DNA of 64,000 bases. Source: Sedimentibacter sp. MB31-C6 (GTDB lineage: Bacteria > Bacillota > Clostridia > Tissierellales > Sedimentibacteraceae). The stretch lies in the NCBI RefSeq assembly GCF_035934735.1, contig NZ_CP142396.1, positions 2,666,001 to 2,730,000 on the forward strand, in the 5' to 3' direction. The notes beneath the pieces are model-generated. The model saw nothing but the letters and a program-made list of their open reading frames with translations. It ran no database searches and was not told the DNA's origin. Below are positions 48,161 to 63,716 of this stretch, in pieces. Positions within the stretch are counted from its first letter, which is position 1. Each line of letters starts with the position of its first letter. The position numbers and the translations under genes were made by a program.

Positions 48161-48275
48161 CCTAACCCAATTTTTCACGACCGAAAGGGAGTAAGAAAAT
48201 CGATGGTAGGTCAACCGCAATGAATTCCAAATTTATGCGACGCAAGGAGCAAATAAATTTGTGAATGAAACTGCG
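48161..48275 (+). repeat. Double-hairpin repeat, copy in the 16S leader of operon 1
   Basis: CCTAACCCAATTTTTCACGA opens hairpin 1, closed by GTAGG; hairpin 2 lies around the GACGCAAGGAGC loop; it ends GAAACTGC. It sits inside the 16S processing stem, about 10 bases before the mature 16S 5' end. Confidence 0.85.
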
Positions 48276-48284
48276 ACAGGAGAT

Positions 48285-50085
48285 ATTAAACGAGAGTTTG
48301 ATCCTGGCTCAGGACGAACGCTGGCGGCGTGCTTAACACATGCAAGTCGAACGAGATTTACATTTCCACCAAGCATTGAACGAAGAAGCCCAAGCACGAA
48401 TGTGCTTCACGCTTTATTAAGCTTGCTAACACAAATAGCAAGAACATAGATTTATCAACTTGATAAAGTATGAATAAAGAGTGAAGAACTGAATGTGCTT
48501 CACGCTTTATTAAGCTTGCTAACACAGTAAAAAAGATATCCTACTACAAAAGTAGAAAAGAAACTAAGTGTTAGTGAAGCTAAAAGAGTGCTTCAAGCTT
48601 AAACAAGCTTGATAACACACTAAGATAAAATAAATTTAGTGTTTGGTGGAGATGTAAATCTAGTGGCGGACGGGTGAGTAACGCGTGAACAATCTACCCT
48701 GTACAAAGGAATAGCCTCGGGAAACCGGGATTAAAACCATATAACACTTTAGAATCGCATGATACAGAAGTCAAAATGAATAGTGGTATAGGATGAGTTC
48801 GCGTCTGATTAGCTAGTTGGTAAGGTAATGGCTTACCAAGGCGACGATCAGTAGCCGGCCTGAGAGGGTGAACGGCCACACTGGAACTGAGACACGGTCC
48901 AGACTCCTACGGGAGGCAGCAGTGGGGAATATTGCACAATGGGGGAAACCCTGATGCAGCGACGCCGCGTGAGTGAAGAAGGTTTTCGGATCGTAAAACT
49001 CTGTCCTTGGTGAAGAAAAAAATGACGGTAGCCAAGGAGGAAGCCCCGGCTAACTACGTGCCAGCAGCCGCGGTAATACGTAGGGGGCGAGCGTTGTCCG
49101 GATTTACTGGGCGTAAAGGGTGAGTAGGCGGTTATATATGTCAGGTGTAAAAGGCTATGGCTTAACTATAGTAAGCACTTGAAACTGTATGACTTGAGTG
49201 CAGGAGAGGTAAGTGGAATTCCTAGTGTAGCGGTGAAATGCGTAGATATTAGGAGGAACACCAGTGGCGAAGGCGACTTACTGGACTGTAACTGACGCTG
49301 AGTCACGAAAGCGTGGGTAGCAAACAGGATTAGATACCCTGGTAGTCCACGCTGTAAACGATGAGTGCTAGGTGTTGGGTAGCGATATTCAGTGCCGAAG
49401 TAAACACAATAAGCACTCCGCCTGGGGAGTACGGTCGCAAGACTAAAACTCAAAGGAATTGACGGGGACCCGCACAAGCAGCGGAGCATGTGGTTTAATT
49501 CGAAGCAACGCGAAGAACCTTACCAAGGCTTGACATCCCCTTGACCGGCACAGAGATGTGCCCTCTCCTTCGGGAGCAAGGGTGACAGGTGGTGCATGGT
49601 TGTCGTCAGCTCGTGTCGTGAGATGTTGGGTTAAGTCCCGCAACGAGCGCAACCCTTATCCTTAGTTGCCATCATTTAAGGTGGGCACTCTAAGGAGACT
49701 GCCGATGATAAATCGGAGGAAGGTGGGGATGACGTCAAATCATCATGCCCCTTATGTCTTGGGCTACACACGTGCTACAATGGTCGGAACAAAGGGAAGC
49801 GAAGGAGTAATCTGGAGCAAATCCTCATAAACCGATCCCAGTTCGGATTGTAGGCTGCAACTCGCCTACATGAAGTTGGAGTTGCTAGTAATCGCGAATC
49901 AGAACGTCGCGGTGAATGCGTTCCCGGGTCTTGTACACACCGCCCGTCACACCATGGAAGTTGGTAATACCCGAAGTCGCTGAGCTAACTGTAAAGAGGC
50001 AGGCGCCGAAGGTAGGATCAATGACTGGGGTGAAGTCGTAACAAGGTAGCCGTATCGGAAGGTGCGGCTGGATCACCTCCTTTCT
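48285..50085 (+). rRNA. 16S ribosomal RNA, operon 1 (with V1 insertion)
   Basis: Runs from just before AGAGTTTGATCCTGGCTCAG to GGATCACCTCCTTTCT, which carries the anti-Shine-Dalgarno sequence. Universal segments such as GTGCCAGCAGCCGCGGTAA, ATTAGATACCCTGGTAGTCC and the GCAACGAGCGCAACCC region are intact. About 1800 nt instead of about 1530, due to an insertion at 48354-48661. The 5' end is placed by analogy. Confidence 0.97.
48354..48661 (+). other. V1 (helix 6) insertion in 16S rRNA, operon 1
   Basis: Between the strands 48354-48372 and 48643-48661, which pair over about 19 bp (ending AAATCT), lie about 270 extra bases. The insert contains two copies of a 36-base unit (48398-48433 and 48491-48526, core GTGCTTCACGCTTTATTAAG) and a third diverged copy at 48586-48620. 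Such hairpin-closed inserts are often excised by RNase III, leaving fragmented 16S. Confidence 0.85.
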
Positions 50086-50314
50086 AAGGAGAACTAAAGG
50101 ACTTATGCTGTTTTATTGCTTGCCCTAACCCGATGAATTCGAGCGAAAGCGAAGAACGAATCGAAGGTAGGTCAGCCGCAACGAGTACCAAATTTTCACG
50201 AACGAAAGTGAGTGAACAAATTTGTGTTACGAGACTGCGCTTGCTCTATAACTTATGGCAAGACTGTTTGAGCTAACAGTATAAACAGGCTTTTTTTAAA
50301 CTAAATAATAAAGT
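50086..50314 (+). other. 16S-tRNA-Ala spacer of operon 1
   Basis: Holds the 3' strand of the 16S processing stem (CTTATGCTGTTTTATTG, 50102-50118), a diverged double-hairpin repeat (50124-50238) and an AT-rich stretch before tRNA-Ala. Confidence 0.75.
50124..50238 (+). repeat. Double-hairpin repeat, diverged copy in the 16S-23S spacer
   Basis: CCTAACCCGAT pairs with ATCGAAGGTAGG, while the stem bases in between differ from other copies on both strands. Hairpin 2 is ACCAAATTTTCAC with a matching 3' strand, ending GAGACTGC. A strong example of conserved structure with changed sequence. Confidence 0.75.
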
Positions 50315-50390
50315 GGGGGTATAGCTCAGTTGGGAGAGCACCTGCCTTGCAAGCAGGGGGTCAGGAGTTCGAATCTCCTTATCTCCACCA
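50315..50390 (+). tRNA. tRNA-Ala (anticodon UGC)
   Basis: A complete cloverleaf with CTTGCAA anticodon loop and encoded CCA, inside the 16S-23S spacer of operon 1. Operon 2 lacks it. Confidence 0.97.
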
Positions 50391-50464
50391 AAAATGCAAC
50401 TCTGTTGCATTGAGCAATGATATTGAACCTTGAAAATTGCATAGGAAAATAAAAGAGAAGATGT

Positions 50465-50576
50465 CCTAACCCAATTTTTTCGACCGACAGGGAGAAAAAA
50501 ATTGATGGTAGGCCATTCGCAACGAATTCCCAAATTTTGCGACGTAAGGAGCAGAAAATTTGGTGAATGAGACTGC
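50465..50576 (+). repeat. Double-hairpin repeat, copy in the 23S leader of operon 1
   Basis: CCTAACCCAATTTTTTCGAC opens hairpin 1, closed by ATTGATGGTAGG. Hairpin 2 is CCAAATTTTGC/GCAGAAAATTTGG. It ends GAGACTGC. Confidence 0.9.
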
Positions 50577-50661
50577 GCGACATTAATTGATAAAAAGTAA
50601 GAATACCGTCGCAAGTATTCTGAAAAATAAAATTAACAATAAACCGAGAGAAACAAACAAA

Positions 50662-50690
50662 TGTAGGGGACGCATTGTATGCGTACCGTA
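50662..50690. repeat. GTAGGGGACGCAT palindrome, short copy
   Basis: TGTAGGGGACGCATTGTATG continuing with CGTACC; only the left hairpin of the element is present. Confidence 0.65.
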
Positions 50691-50732
50691 TAATATATAA
50701 TATATTATGAAGAAATAATATATGACTAGAAT

Positions 50733-63197: not shown

Positions 63198-63205
63198 TTA
63201 TATGT

Positions 63206-63281
63206 GGGAGCATAGCTCAGTTGGGAGAGCATCTGCCTTACAAGCAGGGGGTCATAGGTTCGAGCCCTATTGTTCCCACCA
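63206..63281 (+). tRNA. tRNA-Val (anticodon UAC)
   Basis: Same as 55046-55121. Confidence 0.96.
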
Positions 63282-63359
63282 TATAGAAGAAAGGGTACCA
63301 CCTCTAATATAAAGATAGTCTTTGTAGCCTGAGGAATGTCCCCAATCTAAAATAATTGC

Positions 63360-63436
63360 GGCCTGGTAGTTCAGTTGGTTAGAATGCCAGCCTGTCACGC
63401 TGGAGGTCGAGGGTTCGAGCCCCTTCCAGGTCGCCA
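63360..63436 (+). tRNA. tRNA-Asp (anticodon GUC)
   Basis: Same as 55200-55276. Confidence 0.96.
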
Positions 63437-63439
63437 CAT

Positions 63440-63515
63440 GCTGGTGTAGCTCAATTGGTAGAGCAACTGACTTGTAATCAGTAGGTTAGGGGTTCAAGTC
63501 CTCCCACCAGCTCCA
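63440..63515 (+). tRNA. tRNA-Thr (anticodon UGU)
   Basis: Same as 55280-55355. Last gene shared in order with the first array. Confidence 0.96.
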
Positions 63516-63518
63516 TAT

Positions 63519-63603
63519 GGAAGAGTTCCCGAGAGGCTAAAGGGGACGGACTGTAAATCCGTTGGCACTGCCTTCATTGGTTCGAATCCAATCTCTTCCA
63601 CCA
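63519..63603 (+). tRNA. tRNA-Tyr (anticodon GUA)
   Basis: 85 nt with a long variable arm; anticodon GTA in CTGTAAA; CCA encoded. Specific to the second array. Confidence 0.96.
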
Positions 63604-63608
63604 AATAT

Positions 63609-63716
63609 GACTAGCCCAATTTCTTCTACCGTAAGGAAGAAGAAATTGATGGTGAGTCAATAAAGTCAAATTTGCACAAGTTGAATGAAATTAACAAATT
63701 TCATACATGAAACTGT
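63609..63716 (+). repeat. Double-hairpin repeat, strongly diverged copy
   Basis: CTAGCCCAATTTCTTCTACC and GGAAGAAGAAATTGATGGTG form hairpin 1 around a GTAA loop, with paired changes relative to the consensus. The second half is reorganised (CAAATTTG and CAAATTTC remain). It ends GAAACTGT. Confidence 0.7.

Follow-up and report, generated by a model that had tools for sequence, protein, structure and literature searches.

Why should operons that rank among the most heavily transcribed in bacteria hold one structured repeat after another in their spacers? The question is raised by a 64,000-nucleotide (nt) stretch of Sedimentibacter sp. MB31-C6 (contig NZ_CP142396.1, positions 2,666,001 to 2,730,000 of the forward strand; from here on, the window), where two ribosomal RNA (rRNA) operons with their transfer RNA (tRNA) arrays carry, despite this heavy transcription, seven and eight copies, respectively, of a double hairpin of about 115 nt. 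The answer we favor, with a probability of roughly 0.55, is that the repeat is a REP-like dispersed element belonging to a separate family, gained and lost at individual sites and retained, in the form of folded RNA, at the junctions between cistrons. The preference of its copies for the sense orientation, their anchoring to particular sites and their occurrence in phages together offer a testable link between dispersed repeats and the processing or elongation of transcripts.

A double hairpin in rRNA and tRNA spacers

The original prediction, made from the letters of the window, described at least 14 complete copies of a 112-nt double hairpin together with a 20-base fragment. The structured repeat is real and the count was borne out, as there are 14 full copies and a divergent fifteenth; the double-hairpin architecture also held, but the full units measure 115–119 nt, the divergent one 110 nt, and the fragment 24 nt. 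In operon 1, copies occupy the 16S leader (copy 1, 48157..48274, ending 11 nt upstream of 16S), the 16S–23S spacer between 16S and tRNA-Ala (copy 2, 50120..50238), the 23S leader (copy 3, 50461..50576) and the 23S–5S spacer (copy 4, 53893..54007, in which hairpin 1 has a tip of the CAGA..TCTG type). The spacer between 5S and tRNA-Asn holds the fragment, a 3' end (54187..54210) identical to 62347-62370, and three tandem copies separate tRNA-Met from tRNA-Glu (copies 5 to 7, at 54601..54716, starting 2 nt past tRNA-Met, 54720..54835, and 54839..54954, ending 8 nt upstream of tRNA-Glu). Operon 2 has copies in the 16S leader (copy 8, 56465..56582), the 23S leader (copy 9, 58553..58668) and the 23S–5S spacer (copy 10, 61969..62083), another at 0 nt past 5S and upstream of tRNA-Asn (copy 11, 62255..62370), three in tandem between tRNA-Met and tRNA-Glu (copies 12 to 14, at 62761..62876, 62880..62995 and 62999..63114), and the divergent copy 15 between tRNA-Tyr and tRNA-Gly (63607..63716; 35.8 bits), 3 nt past tRNA-Tyr. 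The tandem period is 119 nt in both arrays, and other window copies lie 36–162 nt from the closest upstream RNA. As had been claimed, every copy has the orientation of transcription (the + strand, like the rRNA and tRNA genes) and none overlaps a mature rRNA or tRNA within the window. The loop motif GACGTAAGGAG, with at most one mismatch, occurs 15 times where 0.45 occurrences are expected, two of the 15 being inside 23S genes.

Both hairpins stand on nearly invariant bases, TGNCCTAACC..GGTAGGTCA for hairpin 1 and GCAACGA..GAGACTGC for hairpin 2. The arms are variable yet paired, and the loops and distal arms vary as well, hairpin 1 having at least two types of tip. Single-copy folding of seven of the 15 window copies gave z-scores of -1.95 to -5.48. 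In a set of 42 distinct sequences, standard pairs make up 96.5% of the pair cells, and both partners change in 32 of 38 pairs; for 126 distinct sequences the corresponding figures are 95.8% and 29 of 38. These two alignments were fitted to the model and so lean towards structure; the covariation score was matched by none of 500 shuffles in either set, slid controls scored far lower, and when 13 window copies are aligned with no fitting to the model, both-side changes occur in 12 of 35 predicted pairs. The covariation of the double hairpin is strong, and chance repeats are ruled out by the loop-motif excess, the single-copy z-scores and the covariation.

The original prediction had set the repeat apart from ordinary rRNA processing stems and boxA elements, and these do form separate features beside it. 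A 16S processing stalk is made by 48064..48079 and its exact complement 50102..50117 (both given on the + strand), the 5' strand of a 23S stalk lies at 50431..50449 (+ strand; its pairing with 53874-53890 was read by eye), and CCTTGAAAATTGC at 50428-50440 is a boxA-like site. That the repeat is itself the processing stalk or boxA is thereby ruled out; copies are found both inside and outside the ordinary 16S and 23S stalks.

Several further features of these operons deserve mention. Just past the 23S–5S copies, GTTAGGGCAT (54015-54024 and 62091-62100) is the complement of the 5' end of the copy, ATGCCCTAAC, so that an alternative outer helix is possible. A small palindrome, GTAGGGGACGCATTGTATGCGTCCC, occurs with variants upstream of the first 16S leader (47633-47657) and in both 23S leaders (50663-50687 and 58739-58763). 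Both 16S genes contain a long insertion in their 5' region (48387-48619 and 56695-56927) with internal repeats of ~93 nt, and 16S length varies within the genome, from 1507 or 1682 positions in other operons to ~1798 here.

Sites, orientation and turnover

A covariance model built from 13 window copies was searched, as had been suggested with the original prediction, against the 3.02-Mb genome itself and against related genomes. The genome returned 32 matches at E ≤ 1e-4, plus one at 0.09. The prediction had spoken of both rRNA operons: two lie in the window, but the genome has at least five. It had also seen a cassette of rRNA operons, and concentration there is real, for 23 of the 32 matches fall within five rRNA operons or their tRNA arrays and read the same way as the operon; what did not hold is specificity, since copies also occur in ordinary spacers, in other repeats and among phage genes. 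Six matches adjoin ribosomal-protein genes and three are elsewhere: two copies and a partial one lie in rplA–rplJ just past the L10-leader terminator, two in rplS–ylqF past a terminator, and one weak match in rpsO–pnp, while one copy follows a molybdenum-cofactor riboswitch and two weak matches lie elsewhere, one of them past a terminator. The set of copies differs between operons, one operon having no 23S-leader copy in a flank that otherwise matches. A Clostridiales-2 RNA (RF02937; locus L008, 2017-2111) lies a short way past the second tRNA array.

For a count at genus level, loci of other families were left out and each group of copies with the same flanks was counted once, giving 145; 13 nested copies were then set apart, so that 132 were retained. 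Records found by the exact pattern were taken to belong to the same genus, which was checked for some by agreement in coordinates and score (L122 with G022, L080 with G023). Flanking genes here and below were called with a simple longest-open-reading-frame script, and some of them are spurious; gene names were first assigned by eye, and NCBIfam and PHROGs were then used to check those of ten host and seven phage proteins. The original prediction held that copies should not be equally common and randomly oriented in ordinary intergenic regions. They turn out to be common elsewhere, but not randomly oriented: 85 of the 132 have both neighboring genes in their own direction and six have both opposed (sign test 6e-19, for copies that are not independent), the rest being 26 between genes of opposite directions and 15 that have no neighbor on one side. 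The orientation of the 13 nested copies is mixed (two with both neighbors, four against both, seven between genes of different directions). A second dispersed repeat of the genus, of the GTCATTCTGA..AATCTC type (L096, L101, L112, L118 and others), has copies of the element within it in mixed orientation.

The left boundaries are equally uneven. Among the 132 copies the boundary is a T-run with a hairpin in 36, a T-run alone in 10, a stop codon in 26, the 3' end of a tRNA or rRNA in 12, another copy in 15 and something else in 29, and four copies have a 23S end no more than 60 nt away; 74 copies begin immediately past a terminator, a stop codon or the 3' end of a stable RNA. A T-run with a hairpin precedes 14 of 62 exact-pattern copies vs 31 of 1830 random intergenic positions, and a T-box ends 16–38 nt upstream of the copy in 8 of 20 hand-chosen loci (18 of the 30 from genome G018 and two from G021). 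Taken together, the boundary counts, the control and the T-box loci indicate that the favored place is just past the end of the preceding RNA or reading frame.

Such boundaries bear on two other explanations. The element might be a cis-acting RNA that modifies RNA polymerase, countering pausing or termination along long untranslated or phage operons in the manner of HK022 put or EAR. A mostly sense double hairpin in rRNA operons, tRNA arrays and phage structural-gene operons would suit such a role, and, according to PMC9378689, putRNA acts alone on the elongating polymerase. However, the 36 copies with a terminator-like site lie just downstream of it, not upstream, as do the copies that follow T-boxes; a copy in this position cannot act on that terminator, only on later ones. 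With so many copies past terminators the proposal is weakened, and we regard it as doubtful. The second possibility is retro-insertion: a group II-type reverse transcriptase, for example, could have attached the element to the 3' ends of RNAs by switching templates, with recombination of the complementary DNA into the chromosome to follow. Group IIC introns, which insert after terminators, were considered as well. Many left boundaries fall where an RNA probably ends (at terminator U-runs, tRNAs or 5S), and copies are mostly sense and form head-to-tail tandems; but stop codons are not known RNA 3' ends and the tandem junctions would fit DNA duplication equally well, which leaves retro-insertion a very improbable account.

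The NCBI class of the genus Sedimentibacter is Tissierellia, and an exact-pattern scan matched S. acidaminivorans, S. saalensis and S. hydroxybenzoicus along with Clostridia and Tissierellia genomes. Copies are carried by 23 of 25 genomes of the genus and, at E ≤ 1e-4, by 92 of 249 genomes of the order, which we take to be Tissierellales. The order includes human commensals. Among 391 genomes sampled from the class, eight match at E ≤ 1e-5, seven of them from the same order and the eighth, from outside it, with its copy flanked by two tRNA genes. Most of the genomes are draft assemblies, whose rRNA operons may be collapsed. The closed genome G021 has 27 matches at E ≤ 0.1, 19 in rRNA or tRNA operons, five in rplW–rplB, rplJ–rplL and the tuf operon, and three elsewhere, while G018 has copies upstream of the aspartate-, leucine-, threonine- and valine-tRNA ligase genes, among others. 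In other families the same rRNA positions recur: all six matches of G030 flank 16S or 23S 3' ends, G192 has copies in 23S–5S spacers, G246 has one copy in a 16S–23S spacer and G221 one in a 16S leader, and G212 and G214 have copies in tRNA spacers. In G021, a cobalamin riboswitch match (L142, 1420-1697; 32.1 bits against a cut-off of 31.5) has a copy inside it (1501-1617), which looks like an entry of the element into the peripheral region of the riboswitch.

The element is extragenic and present at many sites, and it is gained and lost between relatives. At the rplW–rplB junction, sorted by eye, nine of 21 readable genomes have a copy, two a remnant and ten neither (two of the 23 loci were unreadable); the copy is therefore dispensable there. 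Pairwise comparison of five copies at this junction gave 2–8 compensated, 0–1 one-sided and 0–3 broken pairs, a pattern to be expected either if the structure is kept in place or if intact relatives supply fresh copies. Some tandem copies are accompanied by decayed remnants.

Phage copies and the nature of the element

A shorter form of the element occurs in the structural-gene operons of genomes of one other family, which we guess to be Peptoniphilaceae, and of viral contigs. The sites are the junction of portal and head-maturation protease genes, upstream of the major tail protein gene and downstream of the tape measure gene, and several copies start at a stop codon that the element itself completes. 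Thirteen viral records, selected for model matches, contain 22 pattern copies; all seven records with two or more copies have them on one strand, and a reversed-pattern control found none in the viral records. Twenty of the 22 copies lie between two co-oriented genes, one (L350) runs against both neighbors and one has no called downstream gene. A looser hairpin-1 pattern finds 63 viral stretches, some of them necessarily chance, and with a second model 10 matches reach 69 bits or more, among 29 at E ≤ 0.1. The exact Sedimentibacter-type pattern has no match in the viral contigs, and a phage-type copy has none in the phage collection. A blastn search of two tandem copies against 50,697 phage and 72,556 plasmid records returned nothing at 1e-5, so that a phage or plasmid origin is unsupported by nucleotide similarity of these copies. 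In two phage lineages (L236, ~1464-1670, and L231) the element is preceded by a truncated and diverged duplicate of the beginning of the next gene, with only synonymous changes in L236 and amino-acid changes as well in L231.

RNase III sites lie between the genes of phage T7, in the early mRNA, and in bacterial rRNA spacers. By analogy, the repeat could be a dedicated RNA-processing module, an order-specific site for an endonuclease (RNase III, Mini-III or another) placed at the cistron junctions of busy operons and borrowed by phages. Copies in the spacers of rRNA, tRNA, ribosomal-protein, EF-Tu, rpsO–pnp and phage structural genes, mostly sense and right past the upstream unit, would fit this proposal, as would a conserved base carrying variable but paired arms. 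Against it are the presence of ordinary 16S and 23S stalks, with copies on either side of their limits, the ten of 21 genomes that do without the rplW–rplB copy, and the copies that are nested in other repeats or antisense. We consider a dedicated module of this sort possible but unlikely. A bolder reading, which we would entertain only tentatively, is a general-purpose cis RNA module used across the order at rRNA, tRNA, ribosomal-protein and phage junctions, read by a host factor (RNA polymerase, an RNase or another binding protein would be candidates) and portable between chromosome and phage; if correct, it would add a new layer of operon architecture in this bacterial order.

Under the dispersed-element reading that we prefer, copies would spread as a non-autonomous repeat and persist wherever the folded RNA does no harm or is of use, and the rRNA and tRNA operons could act as a reservoir, their spacers being free of translation, strongly transcribed and present in multiple copies. 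The weakest step concerns what the RNA might do: the double hairpin may be a block at the cistron junction of the transcript, shielding the upstream 3' end and offering a double-stranded cut site of the RNase III class that would separate neighboring RNAs. We infer a possible role at RNA 3' ends or in processing.

A number of observations weigh against this reading. Phage copies in several spacers and rRNA positions that recur across families suggest a function beyond persistence and count against pure selfishness. Selection in place is best shown at the single rplW–rplB site, as compensated pairs are not clearly above broken ones at the 23S–5S site (three copies; 2–6 compensated vs 2–4 broken) or in the 16S leader (four copies, one placed by its flank only; 0–4 vs 1–2). 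The wobble bias is modest (107 G-U and 61 A-C cells beside 137 other mismatches, in a count where some distal columns are poorly aligned), and the excess of G-U over A-C points, if only modestly, to folding of the sense strand. Orientation is less regular in some genomes of other families: among 11 copies in G027, most of which sit in another palindromic repeat, five run against both neighbors, three with both and three lie between converging genes; in G192 (L256-L260) the 23S–5S copies are sense, though arrays past 5S, mostly tandem with a ~135-nt period and 300–500 nt from those copies, are antisense to the rRNA operon; and two G033 copies are antisense beside 5S. Of the marks of a MITE (terminal inverted repeats, a target-site duplication and a related transposase), TGNCCTA/TAGGTCA arms are present, but duplications in the flanks are inconsistent. 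Finally, the search for a mobilizing enzyme, which covered four Y1-transposase loci and the presence of Y1 genes in nine genomes, found none: the four loci (one from a repeat-free genome, and leaving out one further Y1 match of the MB31-C6 genome) contain no model match at E ≤ 1, and Y1 presence does not track the repeats, the genes being found also in two repeat-free genomes and missing from one with repeats. On the other side, site loss, nested copies and antisense cases count against an RNA that the host requires.

Relation to known repeats and RNAs

Rfam 15 returned no family for the repeat at the gathering cut-off, the 35 window matches all being to rRNA, 5S or tRNA, and a known Rfam RNA is ruled out at these cut-offs. 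For one tandem array there were two sub-threshold matches at chance level. The longest runs of complementarity between the conserved bases and rRNA are 7–8 nt. No description of the repeat family appeared among the listed matches of an open-access literature search.

The RNase III sites of T7 and of rRNA spacers resemble the element in that they are hairpins placed between the cistrons of phage and rRNA transcripts; it differs in having a conserved basal sequence and in being dispersed as a family. The bcr1-type repeats of the Bacillus cereus group are likewise dispersed, transcribed-looking and conserved in RNA fold, and would be similar in kind, by description, in an unrelated host group.

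The closest comparison is with the REP, BIME and REPIN repeats of the GTAG and CGTC families, described in PMC3733652 as dispersed, extragenic, hairpin-forming and mostly downstream of coding regions, with neither "Firmicutes" nor "Clostridi" occurring in the text of that paper. The element is like them in all four respects and in being plausibly transcribed; it differs from them in its ~115-nt unit of two different hairpins, its sense bias, its head-to-tail arrays and its lack of an unpaired GTAG tag, and no copy lies beside the transposase loci searched. It could nevertheless be imagined as a true GTAG-REP or REPIN mobilized by RAYT transposases, being extragenic, hairpin-forming and in possession of a GGTAGG, with Y1-transposase genes in eight of the nine genomes of the genus that were examined. 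A GTAG-REP is a palindrome of 20–40 bp with an unpaired GTAG/CGTC tag, whereas here a double hairpin of 110–119 nt has its GTAG within a paired arm; BIMEs and REPINs are often opposed pairs, whereas the arrays (in the window and at L005, L006, L094 and L144) run head to tail. With no copy at the four Y1 loci and no tracking of Y1 genes, this identity is not supported and appears most improbable.

In E. coli, REPs that lie no more than 15 nt from a stop codon are reported to lower translation (PMC12306157); the element shares with them a position just past the stop codon, but it also follows terminators, tRNAs and rRNAs. The HK022 putRNA (PMC9378689) and EAR and canT (PMC11658703) are cis-acting, hairpin-rich RNAs of long operons, and resemblance to put or EAR was checked by the Rfam scan only. 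The element too is a hairpin-rich RNA in long operons, any action in cis would be by analogy, and, in contrast to those RNAs, many of its copies come after rather than before terminators.

As a kind, dispersed structured repeats are known. What is new in this one is its sense bias, its anchoring to terminators, stop codons and RNA ends, its reiteration within rRNA operons and its sharing with phages.

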